Assembly: GCF_964186585.1 (NCBI RefSeq)
Contig: NZ_OZ075067.1
Location: 248,001-312,000 of the forward strand
DNA length: 64,000 nt
Direction of reading: 5' to 3'
Origin: Microbacterium sp. MM2322
GTDB lineage: Bacteria > Actinomycetota > Actinomycetes > Actinomycetales > Microbacteriaceae
Made by a program: the position numbers and the translations under genes
In this document: in pieces, positions 13,890-23,662 of the stretch
Layout: the number at the start of each line of letters is the position of its first letter
How positions within the stretch are numbered: the stretch's first letter is position 1
The notes under the pieces: model-generated
Databases searched by the model: none
Told to the model about the DNA's origin: nothing
Seen by the model: the letters and a program-made list of their open reading frames with translations, nothing else

Positions 13890-15161
13890 TCAGGCTCCCT
13901 TGTGGAGCGTGAACTGCTGGGCCGTCGACGACGTGCATTCGGTGACGCGGAGCGCGGGTGACGCGGCGGCATCCATGCACAGGTCGTTCCGGTTGCGGAG
14001 GAGGAACGTGCCCGAACCGGGGGCGATCGGCACCACCTCCCACTTCTGCGCGCTGATGTTGCTGGTCGTGCGGAGGATGGCGTTGCGTGTGCTCGGGCTG
14101 TCCCAGAAGAGGGCGGCCGAGGAGAGGGGGCTGATCTTCAGGTACGAGCCGTCGACGACGAACTTCCACAGCTGGTCCGAGCGGACGGCGCACGCCGTGT
14201 CGACCAGGTCTTCGCCGGCGACGGTCGATCCGCTCGCTCCCACGACGCAGCGCTGCGAGGCGACGTTGCGAATCGAGTAGGCGCTGGTGGTGGTGAGCCA
14301 CCCGGTCGCGTGGAGCACGCCGGGGGACTCCGGTGACACCGCCCCGGCCGTGGAGCCGACCGCACGGACGGTGTAGGCGTAGTAGGTCGACACGTTCAGG
14401 CCGGTGTCGGTGAACTGACGTTGGGATGCCGGGACCGTGGCGACCAGGGCGGAGCCCCGGTACACGCGGTACCCGGTGATGGCGGACGAGTCCGACGGCG
14501 CCGTCCAGGCGATCGTGATGCTGTCGTCGGTCTCGCTGACCTTCGTGGTCGCTCCGGGGGTGACCGTGTCGGCGACCGTCTGGGTGGCGCTCGAGCGCGC
14601 CGTGCTGGTCCATGCGCCCTGTGTGGCCGTCACGACGGCGGTCGCGGCGGTGCGTCCGCCGGCGAGCGCGAATCGCTGCGCCTGGGTGAGCGAGGTTCGC
14701 ACGCAGTAGACCGCGGTGGCGGCGGGCGCGAGGGTGCCGGTGAGGGCGGCCACCGTGGTCCAGGTGGCCGCTGACCCCGAGGTGGTTGCCCCGGCGGTGC
14801 AGCTGGCACGCGTCGGCACGAGCCAGACGTGGACGTCGGTCGCCCGCGACAGCGGGGTGTCGTCGGCGGCGAGTCGCAGGACGTACGGGGCGGGGATGCT
14901 GCCGGTGTTGGTGAGCGTGAGGGGAGCGGTCGTACTGAGGGCCGCGGTCGTGTAGGTCGTGGCCAGCGCGGGGAAGCCGGTCTCGGTGATCGTCAGGGTG
15001 CCGGACGACACCGCGGTGGTCGCCGGATGATCGGCGGTCGTCCAGCTCGCCGAGGCGGTGGCGGGGACGCCGAGAGGCAGGGTCAGGCCGGTCACGAGAG
15101 CGATGATCGCTCGCCGCAGCCGTGGCGGGCGAGGCGTTGCGGCCTTCTGGCGGCCGCTCAC
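13890..15161 (-). CDS. secreted FnIII and ricin-lectin-like protein of the SipW locus
   Basis: 423 aa. An Arg-rich n-region and hydrophobic helix (RAIIALVTGLTLPLGVPA) are followed by ASASWTT, a SipW-type cleavage context. The Thr/Ser-rich middle ends in a fibronectin type III domain (ITIAWTAPSDSSAITGYRVY to YYAYTVRAV, about residues 190-280). The C-terminal 120 residues resemble a ricin-type beta-trefoil (RCVVGASGS, QLWKF, LCMDAAASPALRVTECTS). The protein is probably a cell-surface or matrix component that binds glycans. The GTG at 15161 overlaps the TGA of the previous gene (GTGA). The upstream open frame to 15356 overlaps that gene and was rejected. Confidence 0.78.
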   Translation of the reverse strand: MSGRQKAATPRPPRLRRAIIALVTGLTLPLGVPATASASWTTADHPATTAVSSGTLTITETGFPALATTYTTAALSTTAPLTLTNTGSIPAPYVLRLAADDTPLSRATDVHVWLVPTRASCTAGATTSGSAATWTTVAALTGTLAPAATAVYCVRTSLTQAQRFALAGGRTAATAVVTATQGAWTSTARSSATQTVADTVTPGATTKVSETDDSITIAWTAPSDSSAITGYRVYRGSALVATVPASQRQFTDTGLNVSTYYAYTVRAVGSTAGAVSPESPGVLHATGWLTTTSAYSIRNVASQRCVVGASGSTVAGEDLVDTACAVRSDQLWKFVVDGSYLKISPLSSAALFWDSPSTRNAILRTTSNISAQKWEVVPIAPGSGTFLLRNRNDLCMDAAASPALRVTECTSSTAQQFTLHKGA

Positions 15162-15766
15162 GTCTGGGTCCCGGTGAGATGGAGCGCGAACGGTGTCGCG
15201 GGCTGCCCCTGGGTCGACGCAGCGGCGGTCAGGGGAAGCGTCGTCGACAGGCAGAGGACGCGGCTCTGACCGGCGGGAAGGGTGAGTGTGGTGGGGCCGG
15301 GTTTCGGGGAGGCGAGCGTCCCCGTCCAGAGCGCGCTGATGCTGCCCACAGCGCACGATTGGCCGGATGCCGTAGCCCCGAGGCTGAAGGTCAGGGCTGA
15401 CAGGAACGGCGAGGTCGCGACTGTGGTGGTCAAGCCCGAGACGGCGATCGACAGCGGCACGGAGCCGGTGTTCGCGACCGTGACCGGTCCGGTCGCCGTC
15501 TTGCCCGGGTACAACGCGTCGGTCGGCATCGCGACGGATGACACGGTGAGTTCGGCGGTGCCCGTTGTCAGAGTCGCCGATCCGGTCGCCGCGGGTGAGC
15601 TCGCGTCGAGGAGGGCGTAGGTGCCGAGGCCGCCTGACGCCAGCGAGATGGCGAGGCCTGCGCAGAGCAGGAGACCCGCCGTGACGATGCCTCGGCCACG
15701 GAAGCGGCGAGAGGCAGGGCGCGCAGCAGCGCTGGCGTTGTCGCGTCGGCCCGGAATCGCGCCCAT
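15158..15766 (-). CDS. SipW-dependent exported protein (TasA-locus type)
   Basis: 202 aa. An Arg-rich N-terminus, hydrophobic helix (IVTAGLLLCAGLAISLA) and GGLGTYALLDASSP motif resemble the signal regions of SipW substrates. The mature part is a Thr/Ser/Gly-rich beta domain (LYPGKTATGPVTVANTGSVPLSIAV) with two Cys (in GQSCAVG and RVLCLS). No enzyme motif. It is middle gene of the operon, coupled to the FnIII protein gene by GTGA. Likely role: a structural surface or fibre component. It could also be an anchor or chaperone like TapA, which cannot be decided here. Confidence 0.72.
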   Translation of the reverse strand: MGAIPGRRDNASAAARPASRRFRGRGIVTAGLLLCAGLAISLASGGLGTYALLDASSPAATGSATLTTGTAELTVSSVAMPTDALYPGKTATGPVTVANTGSVPLSIAVSGLTTTVATSPFLSALTFSLGATASGQSCAVGSISALWTGTLASPKPGPTTLTLPAGQSRVLCLSTTLPLTAAASTQGQPATPFALHLTGTQT

Positions 15767-15828
15767 GCTCTCACCTCTTCTCGTGTCGCGGTCGTCTGGT
15801 GATCGTGCCGGCGTATCCGCCGACGCGA

Positions 15829-16401
15829 TCAGTTCTGGGTGAGGGTGACAGCCAGCTCGTCGAGGTCGACCGATCCGAGCTTCGTGTCGTTCTCGAAGCC
15901 GGCGGTGGTGCTCTTCGGGAACGTGATGGTCACATCCACCGAGACGACCTCCGAGACGCCGTCGGCGCCTGCGGTCACCGTGTACGGGGCGGGGCCGGCG
16001 GAGATGCCGGTGCCGGTGGCATCGAGCACCGCGTTGGCGGTGAGGTAGTCGGCGAGCGCGACATCAGCGGGTGCGGTGGCGGATGTCGGCGAGATCGAGG
16101 CCGGGTCGATGTCGAGCGTGGCGACGAGGTTGTCGCCCGTGGCCGTGATCGTCATGTCGGTCGAGTAGGTGACGACGTCACCCGGAACGAGCGGATAGCC
16201 GTCGAGGTTCGAGAGGGGCGAGCCGCCGTTGACCGTCCAGGACGGGGCCTCTGCGACCGGGGTGATCGACAGGTCGCCGGCGACGATGGTTCCGCCCGCG
16301 GTGGATGCGCTTGCATTCCAGAGCGCGAAGGTGCCCGCGCCGCCGAGGAGGAGGGCGACTCCGGCGCCGGCCGCGATGGTGCCTTTGAGGATGTTGTTCA
16401 T
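15829..16401 (-). CDS. TasA-like SipW-dependent secreted protein
   Basis: 190 aa, first gene of the locus. Signal region MNNILKGTIAAGAGVALLL then GGAGTFALWNASAS, the hallmark of the alternate signal peptide recognised by SipW. The mature chain is acidic, cysteine-free and beta-rich (PLVPGDVVTYSTDMTITATGDNL), as in TasA/camelysin family proteins that polymerise into matrix fibres. The gap upstream (16402-16695) should hold the operon promoter; no clear box was identified in it. Family membership is inferred mainly from the signal region and the neighbouring sipW. Confidence 0.8.
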   Translation of the reverse strand: MNNILKGTIAAGAGVALLLGGAGTFALWNASASTAGGTIVAGDLSITPVAEAPSWTVNGGSPLSNLDGYPLVPGDVVTYSTDMTITATGDNLVATLDIDPASISPTSATAPADVALADYLTANAVLDATGTGISAGPAPYTVTAGADGVSEVVSVDVTITFPKSTTAGFENDTKLGSVDLDELAVTLTQN

Positions 16402-17349: not shown

Positions 17350-18102
17350 GTGAAGATCACCCAGGTGCGCAACGCGACTCTTCTGCTCGAGGTTGGGGGA
17401 ACCCGCATCCTCGTCGATCCGATGCTCGGCGCAAAGGGTGCGCAGCCCGGCTTCGCGAGCGCTCGCCGCAATCCGCTTGTCGACCTGGTCGTGCCCCTCG
17501 CGGACCTGCTCGACCCGGAGGTCGTCGTGGTCACGCACACCCATTCCGATCATTGGGATGCCGCGGCCGCCGCCCTCCTCCCTCGTGAGGTTCCCGTGCT
17601 CGTTCAGCACGTTGCGGATGCCGCCGTCCTCGAGGAGGCGGGCTTCACGCAGGTGAGCGTCCTCGACGAGCCGACCACGATGCAGGGCGTGACGTTCACC
17701 CGCACGGGAGGGCTGCACGGCTCGGAGACGACGGTTGCCGCCGCCGAGCTCGGCGAGGTCATGGGTGTCGTTATCGCCCACCCCGATGAGCAGACGCTGT
17801 ACATCGCCGGCGACACCGTCTATCACCCCGCGGTCGAGGAGGCGCTCGCCGCCCACGAGCCGCATGTCATCGTCCTGAACACCGGGGAGGCCGTGCTGCC
17901 CGGCCTCGACCCGATCCTGATGGGCGCCGAGGATGTCGTCCGCGTGCACCGCCTCGCGCCGGACGCCCGCATCGTCGCCGTGCACATGGAAGCACTCGAT
18001 CACTGCACCGTCACCCGCGACGACGTGCGCGCGACGGCCGAGGCGCACGGGATCGCGGAGTCCGTCGACGTCCCGGAGGATGGCGAGACGCTGAGCGCCT
18101 GA
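17350..18102 (+). CDS. MBL-fold metallo-hydrolase
   Basis: 250 aa, metallo-beta-lactamase fold. The metal-binding motif HTHSDHWD is near residues 60-67. An IAGDTVYH block near 155 provides the bridging Asp, and a His (VAVHMEALDHC) is in the C-terminal part. This matches the small L-ascorbate-6-phosphate-lactonase/UPF0173-like hydrolases; the substrate is unknown. Start is a GTG at 17350. It is the only plus-strand gene in this stretch and converges with the 49-aa membrane protein. Confidence 0.85.
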   Translation: MKITQVRNATLLLEVGGTRILVDPMLGAKGAQPGFASARRNPLVDLVVPLADLLDPEVVVVTHTHSDHWDAAAAALLPREVPVLVQHVADAAVLEEAGFTQVSVLDEPTTMQGVTFTRTGGLHGSETTVAAAELGEVMGVVIAHPDEQTLYIAGDTVYHPAVEEALAAHEPHVIVLNTGEAVLPGLDPILMGAEDVVRVHRLAPDARIVAVHMEALDHCTVTRDDVRATAEAHGIAESVDVPEDGETLSA

Positions 18103-18126
18103 CGCGCGCTCTCGGCAGCGGGGTGG

Positions 18127-18276
18127 CTATCGAACGCTGTCGGCGGCGTTCTTCGCAGCGTCACGCTCTTTGTCCAGGAGGCCATCGCGCACACCCCGAC
18201 GCACCGCGATGTACGTGACGTAGCTCCAGACGGCGAGCAGAGTCGCGGCGAGGACGGCGGAGGTGAACGGATCCAT
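18127..18276 (-). CDS. 49-aa single-pass membrane protein
   Basis: Short gene with one hydrophobic helix (SAVLAATLLAVWSYVTYIAV), then positive charges (RRGVRDG) and a charged helix (DKERDAAKNAADSVR). Topology N-out, C-in by the positive-inside rule. An ATTGT-like hexamer lies 6 nt before the ATG. Not recognised as a named family. It sits immediately left of the island boundary, so it belongs to the core chromosome. Confidence 0.6.
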   Translation of the reverse strand: MDPFTSAVLAATLLAVWSYVTYIAVRRGVRDGLLDKERDAAKNAADSVR

Positions 18277-18317
18277 CTGTCCACAATCGCGGAGCACGGC
18301 GTTAATGTCTACCGCTC

Positions 18318-18430
18318 GGAAAAGGCGAAACCCCCGCGAATAGAAGCTTCGCGAGGGTTCCTAGGACCGTTGTAACGACGGTCCGTGTGGCTCCGACAGG
18401 CGTCGATCCCGTGACCTCACGATTTTCAGT
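18318..18430. repeat. left attachment repeat (113 bp) of the tRNA-Phe island
   Basis: Identical to 23520-23632 except for one base (A at 18398 versus G at 23600). It contains the tRNA-Phe 3' part through the anticodon loop, a hairpin GGACCGT-N7-ACGGTCC (18364-18384) and the tRNA terminator hairpin. Both repeats end in the anticodon region, as is usual for tyrosine-recombinase attachment sites in tRNA genes. Confidence 0.92.
18320..18359 (-). terminator. displaced tRNA-Phe terminator at the left island end
   Basis: Stem 18329-18340/18348-18359 (12 bp with one mismatch, 7-nt loop), followed on the minus strand by a U-rich tract. It lies downstream of the leftward TIR/SLOG operon and may now end its transcripts. 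Confidence 0.65.
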
Positions 18431-18433
18431 TGT
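18388..18433 (-). pseudogene. tRNA-Phe 3' fragment in attL
   Basis: Equals the 3' 43 nt of tRNA-Phe (T arm, variable loop, 3' half of the anticodon arm) with one change. It lacks the D arm and 5' acceptor strand, so it cannot be functional. It is the product of site-specific insertion. Confidence 0.85.
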
Positions 18434-18450
18434 ATTCGCCGGGTTTACGG

Positions 18451-18467
18451 GTGCTCACGAGTGCTCA
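18451..18467. repeat. tandem GTGCTCA boxes next to attL
   Basis: GTGCTCA at 18451-18457 and 18461-18467, separated by CGA, 20 bp inside the island from the attachment repeat. Short direct repeats here are typical of integrase arm-binding sites; that role is inference. The rest of the 310-bp stretch 18277-18586 holds only the attL repeat and no gene. Confidence 0.4.
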
Positions 18468-18586
18468 ATTGCCGCGTGATTCCCCGGAAGTCGTGCTAGT
18501 TGCTGATCGCTGGTTCTCGATAGTTTCAACCGAGTTCCCGGCCCGAGACCGGCCCAGAATCGTATACCTTCGGCAACGAGAACTCC

Positions 18587-19258
18587 CTACTGCCTTTGGT
18601 CCGGGTCCAACTCGCGGAGGAATCCATTCCACAACGTCGGGTACGAAATGTCGTTCTCGGCATCGCTGACTGAAGAGCTCGCCCTCTGAGCCTCGAGGGA
18701 CAACTGAGCAGCCTCACCTCCTGGCCGGCGGACTGCATACTTCGGGCGGCCCGGAAAGAGGTCGCTGAACCTGGAGAACTCTTCGCGCACCCCCTCCATG
18801 CCGCCGATGAACACCGCCGCCAGTGGATTGGTTTCGGTCAGCATGCGGGAACGCATTTCTCTCAGACTCGCTTCCCAATGGCCAGGCGTGGGCTCGTCGC
18901 CCGCAACTGCCTCGGTCCAAATGAGCTCGCCCACGCCATCGGCTTCGAACCTGCGGGTCGCGGTCGGCAGGACAGTCTCAAAGAGTTGGGACTGGTAGAT
19001 CACGATCCTTGCTTCGTCGGTCGATGGGAATTCGGCGGCGACGTACATGAGCAACGGCGCGAGAGTTGGATGGGCCGCCGTGACGATCCGAAATTCGCGG
19101 GTCAGACACGCGCGTGCGAAGGCTACAACGGCATCCGTGATCTCGAGCGGCTCAAAGTCCCCTTGCCAACGGGCTGCATCGGGGATGCTTCCAGAGAGGA
19201 AGATGGAACCCTTCACTGGGGCTCGGGTGCCGCGCATCGGTTCTCTATCAATTGCCAC
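18587..19258 (-). CDS. SLOG-fold-like protein of the TIR operon
   Basis: 223 aa. SIFLSGSIPD near residues 18-27 and AVFIGGMEGVREEFSRF near 150-166 match the Rossmann-like SLOG pattern (Gly-rich first strand, later GGM-G and an acidic helix). SLOG domains bind NAD-derived or nucleotide signals; in Thoeris the effector ThsA senses the ThsB product through one. No Sir2, nuclease or membrane effector domain is fused here, so this could be a sensor without its own effector, or an enzyme. The GTG start overlaps the TIR gene by 11 nt. It is the last gene of the operon. The SLOG call is from motif pattern and context. Confidence 0.65.
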   Translation of the reverse strand: MAIDREPMRGTRAPVKGSIFLSGSIPDAARWQGDFEPLEITDAVVAFARACLTREFRIVTAAHPTLAPLLMYVAAEFPSTDEARIVIYQSQLFETVLPTATRRFEADGVGELIWTEAVAGDEPTPGHWEASLREMRSRMLTETNPLAAVFIGGMEGVREEFSRFSDLFPGRPKYAVRRPGGEAAQLSLEAQRASSSVSDAENDISYPTLWNGFLRELDPDQRQ

Positions 19259-20411
19259 GAGTCCACCACCCGCCCACCGCGTTCTCTGGGATCATGCTCA
19301 TCCTTCGCCCACCCGAAACCCACTGAAGATGCCTGCTCAGCCGATCAGACAGAAGCCGCGCGCTGTGGACAAGAAGGCCTGGAAGCTCCGCCCCTATCTC
19401 GGCGGCGACCTCATCGACTTCCTGCAGATCTGATGCCGTCGGTAAGCGCGGTGTAGTACCGACGACTATTCGCCCCTCGGCAGTCTCGACGAGTAGCCGC
19501 CAGTCCTGCAGCGACACGCACGACGCCACACCAGCCGCACGGGCGGCCTCTTCGATGCTCTTGACGAGCATTCTTCGCCGACGTACCAAGCCAAGCGCGT
19601 GTGCTTCCTCGACGCGCGAAACTAGACGATCGAGGCCGGCTTCAGTGAACACATCGAAGTTGTGCTCGTCAGTAACAATTTCGGTCTCGCCTATCTGTAG
19701 TCGGGGTATCCCAGAACTCCCCGGCACGTCCTGCACGTCTCCCGGCCAGCGAGCTATGAGAACACCCATCGTATGGCTGAGCGCATAGTCGACCTCGTCG
19801 TATACCCAGTCTGAAGTGTGAGCGAGCGGAGTCTCCAGAAGGAGCAGGAACGCATGATCTTCAAGCGCGTTCGCTATTTCCGATTGCACATCTGCACCTT
19901 CACGAATGGCGAAGCGGTCGATGAACGGCTGGAATCCGAAGTGCGTGAGCCTGTCGTGAAGTTGTTCGGCTGCGCCAAGCCCGTCGTCGCGGCGATGGCT
20001 GATGAACACCTTTCGCTGGCGGTCTTCGATACCCAGTTCTTCGAACAGCACACGCACTACTCGGCCGAGCGATTCTTGACCGTTCCATGCGATGGCGTTA
20101 GCGAAGGCGAGAATCTTCGGAACCTGCGCGCTGAAGTGTCCAAGGTCGTCGACAAGCGGAAAAATCGTGGTTCCGCGGTTGAGTTCGTAGGCGATCTCAT
20201 CCGCGATATCAGGGTCAGCTTTCGCGGTCGCGTCCCCCAGGTAGACGCACACATGCGGATTAGTGTCGGATGTTCTGCTCTCCGAGACGGTCACAGTCAG
20301 CGAACGATGCAACCCCAGTGTCAAGAGCTCCTGCGCAACGGCCTGGCTGATTGTTCCAGCATCCCCCTCTCGGCCCTTGTGGATCACTCGAATGCCGTAT
20401 GTCGTGGTCAC
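19248..20411 (-). CDS. TIR-domain protein with flanking alpha/beta domains
   Basis: 387 aa. The central TIR domain is about residues 133-245: KVFISHRRDD, FIDRFAIREGADVQSEIANAL, then SDWVYDEVDYAL. Glu206 in that last block aligns by eye with the catalytic Glu of NAD-cleaving TIRs such as SARM1 (DWVHKE). The N-terminal 125 residues (VCVYLGDATAKADPDIADEI, TTIFPLVDDL) look like a second, divergent TIR/Rossmann unit, and the C-terminal 140 residues contain a further alpha/beta region. Likely activity is NAD cleavage or cyclisation as a signal or toxin. GTG start coupled (GTGA) to the ThsB-like gene, and overlapping the SLOG gene downstream. Confidence 0.82.
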   Translation of the reverse strand: MTTTYGIRVIHKGREGDAGTISQAVAQELLTLGLHRSLTVTVSESRTSDTNPHVCVYLGDATAKADPDIADEIAYELNRGTTIFPLVDDLGHFSAQVPKILAFANAIAWNGQESLGRVVRVLFEELGIEDRQRKVFISHRRDDGLGAAEQLHDRLTHFGFQPFIDRFAIREGADVQSEIANALEDHAFLLLLETPLAHTSDWVYDEVDYALSHTMGVLIARWPGDVQDVPGSSGIPRLQIGETEIVTDEHNFDVFTEAGLDRLVSRVEEAHALGLVRRRRMLVKSIEEAARAAGVASCVSLQDWRLLVETAEGRIVVGTTPRLPTASDLQEVDEVAAEIGAELPGLLVHSARLLSDRLSRHLQWVSGGRRMSMIPENAVGGWWTRGN

Positions 20412-20998
20412 GTCGAGTTCCGCTGACGTAGAGCCCTGGAGTTGTCCACCAACGTCGCCTTCGCTGAGCGCGCTTGAAATGCTGACTCAATACTGGTTCG
20501 CAGGGACTCTAAGGTGGCGGGATAGCTCCGGTAGTAGGCGTAGGAAGCGGCTTCGTTGTTTTTCACCCAGTTGTCCCCGACACGGTCTGGGAGATGGGCC
20601 GAGTTGTTCATCGACGGCAGGGGCAGTACGAGAAGACCGCTTCGGCGATTCACGGCGTCATTCCGAAGACTTGACGAGATCTCCCAGTCAACGAACTTCC
20701 GGCCCCAGGTTCCTGCTCCGAGAAGCACGATAGTGACCGTTGAATCGGCGAGGTATTTCTCTCGAATGCGTCTTTTGATGTAGTCGGTGTCATTGCTCTC
20801 GACGAAGTCGTCTTCCTCAGTGACTCCTACCGACCGTGGGATGAACTCGGAGCCAAAGTCTGTGACGAAGGTCTCGACTTCCAAGAGGTCTGCGACATGG
20901 TAGGAAACGAAGCACTTGTGGCGGCTGTCGTCGGTCTTTTTCAGAGAGGCCAGTTCCGCGAGTATCTGGACCTCGCGCATCTGAGATCTACTGCTCAT
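20408..20998 (-). CDS. ThsB-like TIR protein (MTH538/DUF1863 domain)
   Basis: 196 aa. Residues about 28-112 carry the MTH538 TIR-like pattern: KCFVSYHVAD, NDTDYIKRRIREKYL, STVTIVLLGAGTWGRKFVDWEI. The DWE triad is at 104-106. This is the fold of ThsB, the Thoeris sensor that makes a cyclic ADP-ribose isomer from NAD on phage infection. The C-terminal 80 residues fit no named domain. The ATG has GGGGG 4-5 nt upstream and is the first gene of the leftward operon. The assignment to a Thoeris-type role is inference from family and operon. Confidence 0.82.
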   Translation of the reverse strand: MSSRSQMREVQILAELASLKKTDDSRHKCFVSYHVADLLEVETFVTDFGSEFIPRSVGVTEEDDFVESNDTDYIKRRIREKYLADSTVTIVLLGAGTWGRKFVDWEISSSLRNDAVNRRSGLLVLPLPSMNNSAHLPDRVGDNWVKNNEAASYAYYRSYPATLESLRTSIESAFQARSAKATLVDNSRALRQRNST

Positions 20999-21207
20999 CG
21001 TTCCCCCTGTTCCGCACTGCAGGTGCGTCGATTCGTGGTCGAACGCCGCGGACAGCAGCGCCCCCTCCCGCAGGCTATCGCCAACCAGCGGCTGGTCGCA
21101 GCTGTACAGGACTGTTGGCGTCGCTAGCGCCGGGTGAGCTGGGGCGCCGGGTTGGCCCGTTTAGGGTCTTCGAATTTGAGGTGTACTCAGTGGTCGAGCG
21201 GCTTTGG

Positions 21208-21260
21208 TCGGATAGGCATCGAACTCCTCCACGATGGAAGTCGGTAGGTTGCCTATCCGA
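21208..21260. repeat. perfect inverted repeat, arms 11 bp, loop 31 nt
   Basis: TCGGATAGGCA (21208-21218) pairs with TGCCTATCCGA (21250-21260). No T tract follows, so it is not a simple terminator. It may be a regulator site, a structured RNA, or a remnant of the mobile-element end that precedes the ISL3-like fragment by 12 bp. Confidence 0.4.
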
Positions 21261-21271
21261 AGGTCCTCGAG

Positions 21272-21406
21272 GTGCGCAACGCTGCCTTCGCCGACCTTGA
21301 CCTGACCACGTTCTGCCGGATCAACGAACTCGCTCTCGGAGCCGTCTCGCAGCGTCTCGAGCCGGATTGGACGTCGCCTCGTGCACGAACGATCACCGCC
21401 CCATAA
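21272..21406 (+). pseudogene. ISL3-family transposase N-terminal remnant
   Basis: A 44-codon frame from a GTG. Its translation to about 21375 (NAAFADLDLTTFCRINELAL, then SQRLEPD) resembles the conserved start of actinobacterial ISL3 transposases (LTTFCR-ELGL--GQRLEPD). Homology stops abruptly and a TAA follows at 21404; the zinc-binding and catalytic parts are absent. It marks an old IS insertion or deletion in the island. Confidence 0.55.
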
Positions 21407-21879
21407 TGACGCCCAGAGAACGATGACGAGGCCGGGAGAAGGTGCTTGTGCGCGCTCGATAAGGTAGCTCACTATCTCGTCGGCTGCGCTTGTTGGTGGG
21501 TCATGCGGCGTTCGCCAAGTGTCTTATTGCGAGCGCGCGTGCCGTTCTTCGAGCCTCCGCGAACCGTCCCGCCATTTTGGACGGGTCTATCCTCTCGGGG
21601 TTCTGCGAGTCAACGAGGTTGAGCCCTCTTGAACGGCGCTGCGCTGTGCTCGGCGGGATCGAATACGACGTCATTCTGTCTGAAGTCAGTGGCGCCTGGT
21701 GCCTCGACCTGGGCCTGCCCGCGAGCGGCATCCCCTGTTCGTGTGGGGGGTGCGCGTGCCAGAACGACGCGGACGCCCTGTCTGCCGCGCATTCGATGTG
21801 CGGCTGCTGCCTCACTCACTGCCCTGACGTGCAGGGGGAAGCGGGGCGCGGATGCACGGTCGCGACGCGATATAGCCGC

Positions 21880-21885
21880 TACTTT
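21880..21885 (+). promoter_or_regulatory. -10 hexamer TACTTT, leaderless promoter of the island ATPase
   Basis: Exact TANNNT with 6 nt to the ATG at 21892. It supports that start over the longer frame from 21490. Confidence 0.5.
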
Positions 21886-21891
21886 GATCGC

Positions 21892-23355
21892 ATGGTCGCC
21901 GCCAAGTTTCCTCAGTTCTCATCTCTCGACTTCGGACGCCTGGACGCTCGCGAGGAAGCGAAGCGTGCTCCGGGCCTTCTGATCAACGGCTACTTCGACT
22001 TCGAGAACGCGGCCTACGACGTCGCGTCAGGTCAAGCTTGGATTCTGATCGGTCCGAAGGGGGCAGGTAAATCAGCCTGCTTGGAGCATCTCGGGCTCAT
22101 ATGGAACGGACAGCACGATCGCTTCCTGTCTCGGTGGGATCTCGGAAGCTTTCCCGTGGCGGACGTAACGAAGATCCAGGTGGGGACCTCGCCGGGGCCG
22201 ACCAGCACTCGGGCAGCCTGGGAATTCCTACTCCTTCTACGAGTGTTCGAATCTCTGATGGCAGATCAATCTGCCGCCTATCCGGCCCCCATCACGGGCT
22301 TCCACAAGTCTCTCGTCACCGCTGGTTTGCTCGGCGGACCAGACTTGCGCACAAAGTTCTTCGATTGGTCGAAGACGACCGTGAAGTTCAGTGTGCTCAT
22401 GTTCGGCGTTGAGGGAAGCACGCAGGAGACTGAAGCCACCCCGCTGCAGGTCGTGGACCTCCTGAGGCGCGCCATCGGCCTTATCGAGACCTCCGCTCGA
22501 CATGTCGTGTCGGTAGATGGGCTTGACTCCTTTTTCGCTCAAGCACAGGATCAGCGGGACTCCCTCGGCGCACTTGTCGATGCCTCTCACGAGGTCAATC
22601 ACTTCCTTCTAGACACACAGGCTCGATCTTCTGTCGTGTTGGCTATCAGGCACGACATGTTCGTGTCGCTGCCCAGTACTGACTCGGCGAAACTCGGTGA
22701 CCATGCGGTCGAACTCGACTGGAGTCGGGGCGGGACGAGCAAGGGAGAGGATCTCTGGAAGCTAATTGGCGCCAAGGCAAAGAGCTCCGTGCCGGCTTCA
22801 CACACGGGCCTCGCGCTCGGCGACGTGCGCAAGGCATATCTCGCTGAACCGATCGGTATCGGACCCCACAACGACCTGCCCTCGTACTTGTTGGCGCAGA
22901 CGCGACTGATCCCACGCGATCTGGTCGCCCTTATGGGCGCGCTTCAGAAGCTGCATCAGGGGGCCGGCCAGATTCAGGAGTCGACGGCCGTGGCCGCGGT
23001 CAAGCAGTACGCTGACACTTACTTCATTCGCGAGATGCGAAACAACTTGAGCCATGTTTTGCCAGGGCAGAGCGACAAGGTATCCGCCTTCTTCGATGCG
23101 TTGAGTGTGCTGAGTTCTCGTCATTTCAACGCGGAAGCGCTGAAACCTGAGCTGGACGGCATCGTAGAGAAGCATGAGCTTAGGGCTCTGCTGAACCAGC
23201 TTTTCCTAGCGGGTGGACTTGGAGTGCAGTCTCGTAGCGCAGGGTCGATGCACACGAACTTCATCTTCCGCAAGACCTCCGGCGGAGGGTTCTCCTTCGT
23301 CGCGGACTATGTGCTTCACAACGCGTTGGTCTCGGCGCTGAATCTCAACTGGTGA
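21892..23355 (+). CDS. P-loop ATPase of the island (Sll1717-like)
   Basis: 487 aa. Walker A GPKGAGKS is at residues 54-61 within QAWILIGPKGAGKSACLEHL. The Walker B-like HVVSVDGLD is near 204-212, and LAIRHDMF near 255 could be a sensor region. The N-terminus LINGYFDFENAAYDVASGQ precedes the loop as in P-loop proteins of the Sll1717 type. The C-terminal 200 residues are mostly helical (MRNNLSHVLPGQSDKVSAFF) with a winged-helix-like end. No membrane segment. STAND-like or KAP-like NTPases often act as sensors or switches in defence systems; that role is inferred from the divergent TIR/SLOG operon. ATG fixed by the TACTTT hexamer. Confidence 0.75.
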   Translation: MVAAKFPQFSSLDFGRLDAREEAKRAPGLLINGYFDFENAAYDVASGQAWILIGPKGAGKSACLEHLGLIWNGQHDRFLSRWDLGSFPVADVTKIQVGTSPGPTSTRAAWEFLLLLRVFESLMADQSAAYPAPITGFHKSLVTAGLLGGPDLRTKFFDWSKTTVKFSVLMFGVEGSTQETEATPLQVVDLLRRAIGLIETSARHVVSVDGLDSFFAQAQDQRDSLGALVDASHEVNHFLLDTQARSSVVLAIRHDMFVSLPSTDSAKLGDHAVELDWSRGGTSKGEDLWKLIGAKAKSSVPASHTGLALGDVRKAYLAEPIGIGPHNDLPSYLLAQTRLIPRDLVALMGALQKLHQGAGQIQESTAVAAVKQYADTYFIREMRNNLSHVLPGQSDKVSAFFDALSVLSSRHFNAEALKPELDGIVEKHELRALLNQLFLAGGLGVQSRSAGSMHTNFIFRKTSGGGFSFVADYVLHNALVSALNLNW

Positions 23356-23519
23356 CGGGTCCTCGCCCATCTTTGAAAGAGCTTCGGCTTGACAACGGGC
23401 CCACCCAGGTGGCTGCAGCCTCTGCATCCGCGCGCGCTCCGCGAATGAACTTACTTCACCCGCTAAGCGACAGATGCTGAGCCTGACGCCGGTAGAGACG
23501 CAAATTTGTATCTCAGCAG

Positions 23520-23632
23520 GGAAAAGGCGAAACCCCCGCGAATAGAAGCTTCGCGAGGGTTCCTAGGACCGTTGTAACGACGGTCCGTGTGGCTCCGACG
23601 GGCGTCGATCCCGTGACCTCACGATTTTCAGT
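23520..23632. repeat. right attachment repeat (113 bp), in intact tRNA-Phe
   Basis: Second copy of the direct repeat at 18318-18430, one mismatch. It overlaps the 3' 43 nt of the intact tRNA-Phe and its terminator. The stretch 23356-23519 between ATPase and repeat shows no gene. Confidence 0.92.
23522..23561 (-). terminator. Rho-independent terminator of the tRNA cluster
   Basis: Stem 23531-23542/23550-23561, 7-nt loop, then a U-rich minus-strand tract. It follows tRNA-Phe by 28 nt. Confidence 0.75.
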
Positions 23633-23662
23633 CGTGCGCTCTACCAACTGAGCTACAGAGCC
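23590..23662 (-). tRNA. tRNA-Phe (GAA)
   Basis: 73-nt cloverleaf. Acceptor GGCTCTG pairs with CGGAGCC (one G-T pair), discriminator A, D arm AGCTCAGTTGGTAGAGC, and anticodon GAA in a loop ACTGAAAAT. CCA is not encoded. It is the insertion target of the island; the intact gene is retained. Confidence 0.97.

Follow-up and report, generated by a model that had tools for sequence, protein, structure and literature searches.

A three-gene operon in an island at tRNA-Phe

We analysed a stretch of 64,000 nucleotides of Microbacterium sp. MM2322 (positions 248,001 to 312,000 of contig NZ_OZ075067.1; host genome of 3.09 Mb in one contig), referred to below as the window. An island of 5.2 kb lies there at a tRNA-Phe gene and its genes are intact: an operon of three genes on the minus strand and, divergent from it, a gene for a P-loop ATPase. 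As judged from the encoded proteins, the operon almost certainly belongs to Thoeris type III. It is a new member of that type on a distinct actinobacterial branch, and not a new system.

The operon reads sTIR, thcB4, thcA, the first two genes overlapping by 4 nt and the last two by 11 nt. sTIR (20408..20998) encodes a ThsB-like TIR protein of the MTH538 type (196 aa, with Glu106), which matched PF08937 ThsB_TIR with an E-value of 1.8e-14. thcB4 (19248..20411, GTG start) encodes 387 aa arranged as an N-terminal alpha/beta domain, a TIR domain at about residues 130-273 that contains Glu206, and a C-terminal domain; the match was to PF13676 TIR_2 (E 4.8e-13). thcA (18587..19258, also with a GTG start) codes for a stand-alone SLOG protein of 223 aa that forms one domain and matched PF18180 SLOG cluster3 at E 2.5e-29. 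The two TIR proteins and the separate SLOG protein described in the initial annotation of this DNA were thus borne out.

When the proteins were scored against NCBIfam, ThcB4 passed the Thoeris type III equivalog NF058526 (291.5 bits, cut-off 220) and ThcA passed the corresponding equivalog NF058525 (150.3 bits, cut-off 110). No NCBIfam match was obtained for sTIR. In PADLOC 2023, a ThsB model was the top match for both sTIR and ThcB4 (for the latter 132.7 bits, across almost the entire length), with weaker matches to other TIR models, and ThcA had no match. sTIR also gave a weak match to ThsB in the PDB (E 0.003), and its E106 was kept in 8 of 8 aligned rows. The relationship to Thoeris proposed earlier is upheld by the two curated cut-offs. 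The accompanying proposal of a candidate new system is not, since two of the three operon proteins pass as type III and the TIR-ThcB4-ThcA order recurs in other phyla.

The island is bounded by direct repeats of 116 nt each (98% identity), spaced 5202 nt apart. In the left repeat, which is att-like (18318..18433), the 3' part of tRNA-Phe is copied over 47 nt at 18387 with two mismatches. The right repeat (23520..23635) spans the 3' 47 nt of the intact tRNA-Phe gene, the integration site (GAA; 23589..23662, minus strand, found by ARAGORN), and the sequence immediately downstream. The G+C content is about 56-64% within the island compared with about 65-76% in the sampled flanking chromosome, the tRNA cluster excepted. 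In the nearest relative by tRNA cluster (G056), a metallo-hydrolase gene is immediately succeeded by a single repeat copy and then by tRNA genes, an arrangement best read as the uninterrupted, empty integration site. Repeats spanning the 3' end of the tRNA and an empty site in a relative are both features of an integrase-type genomic island at a tRNA gene; the repeats, the tRNA and the reading frames all lie where they had been placed earlier.

The same relative lacks the 215 bp outside the left repeat (18103..18317), and its homologue of window position 18102 is joined directly to the repeat. A search with this segment in 42 loci, of which the majority extend no further than 1.5 kb from the tRNA genes, gave no match at E 1e-5; the segment may be a leftover of an earlier insertion. 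No integrase was found in the island when the tyrosine-integrase family (PF00589), the one family searched, was used; the three matches of the genome lie at 1.08, 1.38, and 1.59 Mb.

Putative catalytic and pocket residues

Relatives were collected by a scan of genome contigs that confirmed 246 relatives of ThcA, the best 80 of which were retained as loci, fetched by the patterns FIGGM[GED]G[IV] or [IV]FLS[AG][SG][VI]P[DV][PIA]. An alignment of ThcB4 was made with 66 rows, comprising the window and 65 of 79 ThcB4 loci. Four open reading frames outside 330-460 aa were left out, and ten were omitted by hand (L058, L066, L093, L107, L108, L113, L118, L120, L125, L126), two for odd ends and most of the others as near-duplicates. 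All 66 rows have E206, which lines up with the Glu in 'VHKEI' of SARM1, in agreement with the NADase position assigned to it earlier. The predicted structure of ThcB4 matched the TIR domains of SARM1 and SPARTA, in a comparison that barely covered the N- and C-terminal domains.

In ThcA, S22, R136, and E160 were found in all 81 rows. Conservation within F20-P26 and F150-G156 is partly built in, because the loci were fetched by those patterns; S22 lies inside them, and S131, R136, E160, and positions 61-62 lie outside. R136 and E160 were paired with an Arg and a Glu of a ThsA in an alignment that was weak (E 0.056). The consulted part of PMC7272460 gives Ser288, Phe357, Arg371, and Glu403 as pocket residues of Bacillus cereus ThsA, and that of PMC10022894 describes Arg371, Lys388, and Glu403 as coordinating 3'cADPR, a cyclic ADP-ribose; the latter paper also reports that ThsA changes of this kind gave constant activity in plants. 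We infer from these sequence comparisons that R136, E160, and S22 of ThcA would correspond to Arg371, Glu403, and Ser288 of ThsA. The predicted structure of ThcA also matched the cADPR-binding SLOG domain of ThsA, so that structure prediction confirmed both of the folds, SLOG and TIR, that had been read from the letters. A profile comparison of ThcA with ThcB4 (probability 13.9%) was not used.

Gene order and correlated divergence

With the exception of L054, the 80 loci all have ThcB4 upstream of ThcA (79 of 80). The two genes overlap in 58 loci and are at most 20 nt apart in another 19 (77 together), overlaps being upper estimates as reading frames were taken from the first start codon; the gap is 2.1 kb in L058 and 93 nt in L086. 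On plasmids, the records with ThcA and those with ThcB4 were the same 29. Further TIR genes occur within 6 kb in 74 of the 80 loci (one in 26, two in 38, three in 9, and four in 1) and none in the other six. The order TIR-ThcB4-ThcA was seen in Sphingobium, Acidithiobacillus, Indioceanicola, and Sulfitobacter, and in one actinobacterial genome (G554) a TIR gene stands on both sides of the ThcB4-ThcA pair.

The distances of ThcA and of ThcB4 rise and fall together: rho was 0.93 over 79 loci. For ThcA and the directly upstream TIR, rho was 0.25 over the 28 loci having one. Moreover, 22 locus pairs, which are not independent, combine a near ThcA (distance <0.45) with a far upstream TIR (>0.6), and no reverse pair (ThcA >0.6, TIR <0.45) was seen among the locus pairs compared. 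These results fit a constant ThcA-ThcB4 module whose neighbouring TIRs, to judge from the sequences, are exchangeable. One result weighs against the simple form of this view. Among pairs with related TIRs (distance <0.75; 116 of 378 pairs), rho was 0.85 for ThcA and TIR, compared with 0.96 for ThcA and ThcB4; exchange would hence act at the level of TIR families.

Among 396 evenly drawn Actinomycetota genomes, ThcA was present in two, that of the window and G554, and near-full-length ThcB4 only in the same two (205.5 bits in G554, below the cut-off of 220). Another 29 of these genomes had partial ThcB4 matches, nearly all over the TIR region. An Escherichia coli version contains several TIRs and a patatin; 4 of 5426 E. 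coli genomes have near-identical copies of it. In viral contigs, none of 59 pattern stretches was confirmed as ThcA, and phage records gave no ThcA match. No fusion was seen among 120 listed of 281 ThcB4-like and 120 listed of 2979 ThcA-like proteins, in searches that scored just the 8000 candidates with most words in common.

Two gene sets beside type III loci may be noted. A patatin phospholipase with a SLOG cluster2 match stands among TIR genes at L007:5214-6830, and 7 of the 80 genome loci hold relatives of it; its record names it a CBASS phospholipase, but the presence of the SLOG part points to a further effector responding to the TIR signal. At L011:9787-12680 (also, for example, L071, L089, L091, L094, L099), genes for a ThsB-like TIR, an Nmad2-domain protein, a MazG_C-domain protein, and a uracil-DNA glycosylase lie together, and relatives of the last three stand beside 22, 21, and 18 of the 80 loci, respectively. 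This set may be a separate, linked defence cassette.

A distinct actinobacterial branch with one small TIR family

In the tree, ThcA of the window clusters with five Actinomycetota loci (L049-L053) with a support of 100/98 and a stem of 0.92. The joining of L054 to this branch was flagged as possibly false, and the six-row branch is independent of it. At ThcA positions 61-62, the conserved GG is replaced by AA in 6 of 81 rows, which are exactly the branch members; one further Microbacterium copy (G117) also has AA. Between the window ThcB4 and the 60 non-actinobacterial rows of the alignment, identity is 20-25%.

In all seven operons (the six branch members and G117), sTIR lies upstream of ThcB4, and its copies form one family with 62-96% identity over 21 pairs. 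It is the slowest-changing protein of these operons, with a mean identity of 71% compared with 56% for ThcA and 56% for ThcB4. Outside the branch, L106 too has an upstream TIR that resembles sTIR most (89 bits), and G371, a genome 83% complete that had no ThcA match, holds an sTIR relative of about 50% identity. By its sequence relatives, the sTIR family is not confined to type III Thoeris. At L198:8851-9879, an sTIR relative (about 50% identical) adjoins another TIR-like frame without ThcA.

In Microbacterium lacticum, about 13 kb separate the operon from the same tRNA-Phe gene (L129:1-19901), and transposase-like genes and a phage-integrase-domain protein lie near the operon. Its neighbours also include restriction-modification-like genes, named, as were the transposase-like ones, by eye from the reading frames. 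These defence-type neighbours of the same operon suggest that tRNA-Phe may be a shared defence hotspot.

A genome listed under the same genus (G109; 120 contigs, 83% complete) carries ThcA and ThcB4 (L015:8482-10343) that, over the length they share, look identical to their counterparts on a Sphingobium plasmid. This may be a foreign contig or a very recent operon transfer, and G109 was left out of the branch count.

Proposed mechanism and alternatives

The constant ThcA-ThcB4 module with exchangeable TIRs recalls Bacillus Thoeris, in which a number of ThsB proteins are believed to detect distinct infection markers (PMC11204291, in the part consulted). Starting from this likeness and from what was observed (sequence membership, folds, gene order, and correlated divergence), we infer a scheme whose every functional step, phage defence included, is modelled on type I Thoeris. 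The small ThsB-like TIR would recognise infection and turn NAD+ into an ADP-ribose-type nucleotide. ThcA would bind this nucleotide in a ThsA-like pocket containing R136, E160, and perhaps S22. Paired with ThcB4, it would then activate ThcB4, so that NAD+ would be degraded through Glu206 and the infected cell stopped. ThcA and ThcB4 together would thus be a split ThsA in which a TIR replaces SIR2.

That a TIR-made nucleotide is sensed by the SLOG protein is, by this analogy, quite probable. The further step, that ThcB4 is an NAD+-depleting output controlled by ThcA, is tentative, and we would put it somewhat below an even chance. Taken whole, the reading of the locus as a type III member from a distinct actinobacterial branch, inserted at tRNA-Phe with an apparently unrelated ATPase and working as a split ThsA, appears evenly balanced. 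A more general proposition seems doubtful to us: that type III is a free-standing SLOG sensor obligately paired with a TIR NADase and served by interchangeable ThsB-like sensor TIRs, and that the actinobacterial branch has one sensor TIR frozen and the GG loop changed to AA. The frozen TIR and the altered ThcA loop would in that case mean that this branch may use a different nucleotide signal.

In the leading alternative, both TIRs, ThcB4 included, would only sense the phage and make the signal, and ThcA would be the effector, a SLOG/LOG-like N-glycosidase that cuts a nucleotide when switched on. LOG-type SLOG enzymes use an Arg and a Glu. However, the best structural match of ThcA is a sensor domain, albeit by a margin of only about 1 Z, and the first GG is AA in the window's own ThcA branch. 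A profile comparison of ThcA with 16 LOG stretches (after dropping L159, L161, and L171) was not significant (probability 3.7%), and neither was one with a first, poor set of 19 stretches. We regard an effector role for ThcA as possible but unlikely.

It is improbable, though less so than the last explanation below, that the operon is intact but silent, or serves a stress or conflict other than phage. In favour of this, no sigma-70-type promoter was found in the island where 1.1 would be expected, although actinobacterial promoters may differ from that type. On the other side, the frames are open, the residues at catalytic positions are present, the M. lacticum copy adjoins the restriction-modification-like genes described above, and 18 of the 29 plasmid records with ThcA are predicted conjugative.

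The ATPase gene (21490..23355, plus strand) encodes a member of the Sll1717 family (NF047389, 224.1 bits, cut-off 75). Its true start is probably the ATG at 21892, because the family match begins only at residue 148; scored from there, the protein gave 225.3 bits. It lies between the same repeats as the operon, and the initial annotation had considered it as a fourth component of the system. ATPases of this family were above the cut-off in 11 of the 198 genomes of the relatives set, the window's own included, and ThcA and the ATPase coincide solely in that genome. The 80 fetched ThcA loci, reaching up to 10 kb on each side, contained no homologue of the ATPase, and neither did the stretches fetched around this operon in M. 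lacticum and in G117. The expected co-occurrence of four genes elsewhere therefore held for the three operon genes and failed for the ATPase, which is apparently a passenger, a separate cargo unrelated to the Thoeris system. A new four-gene system with the ATPase as sensor, switch, or effector was rejected and is most improbable.

Outside the island, window positions 13890-16401 hold three minus-strand open reading frames that look exported by eye. Fibronectin type III and ricin-type lectin domains were matched in the frame at 13890-15356, and the other two have no Pfam match. They may form a surface-protein gene cluster.

Comparison with known systems

ThcB4 resembles the TIR NADases SARM1 and SPARTA, whose TIRs deplete NAD+, in its TIR domain and differs from them in the flanking domains. 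ARM, SAM, and APAZ, the domain content of SARM1 and SPARTA, gave no family match in ThcB4.

With Thoeris types II and IV the operon shares TIR proteins. Type II pairs ThsB with a TM-macro ThsA, and type IV has a caspase-like effector, according to the parts consulted of PMC11204291 and PMC12847820. In the three operon proteins, no macro family (transmembrane segments were not examined) and no protease family was matched. With type I (a ThsB TIR with a SIR2-SLOG ThsA) it has in common a ThsB-like TIR, the SLOG fold and, by the weak alignment, the Arg and Glu positions of the ThsA pocket. It differs from type I in that SLOG here forms a protein by itself and the constant partner position is held by a second TIR protein; none of the three proteins matched a SIR2 family. 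Types I, II, and IV were rejected because their effector domains were unmatched, and the earlier statement that the layout is neither type I nor type II stands.

The likeness to Thoeris type III lies in both signature proteins passing their cut-offs, in ThcB4 directly upstream of ThcA, and in a further TIR alongside; the gene-order and extra-TIR features are drawn from the loci examined here and not from a published definition. A literature search gave, among the matches listed, no paper describing type III or its mechanism, a matter that may be answered elsewhere; the phrase 'Thoeris type III' was met solely in a phage genome paper (PMC12390725), in the part consulted. Within type III, the window operon is set apart by a ThcA on the separate actinobacterial branch with AA for GG, by a ThcB4 distant from all non-actinobacterial rows, and by an upstream TIR that is one family in seven operons.

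An intact three-gene type III Thoeris operon is hereby placed in Microbacterium, and the comparison suggests a testable division of labour in which the ThcA-ThcB4 pair is constant and the neighbouring TIRs are exchangeable. Should ThcA itself cut a nucleotide, the effector of type III would be a SLOG protein; should it instead control ThcB4, the role that SIR2 plays as effector in type I would fall to a TIR.

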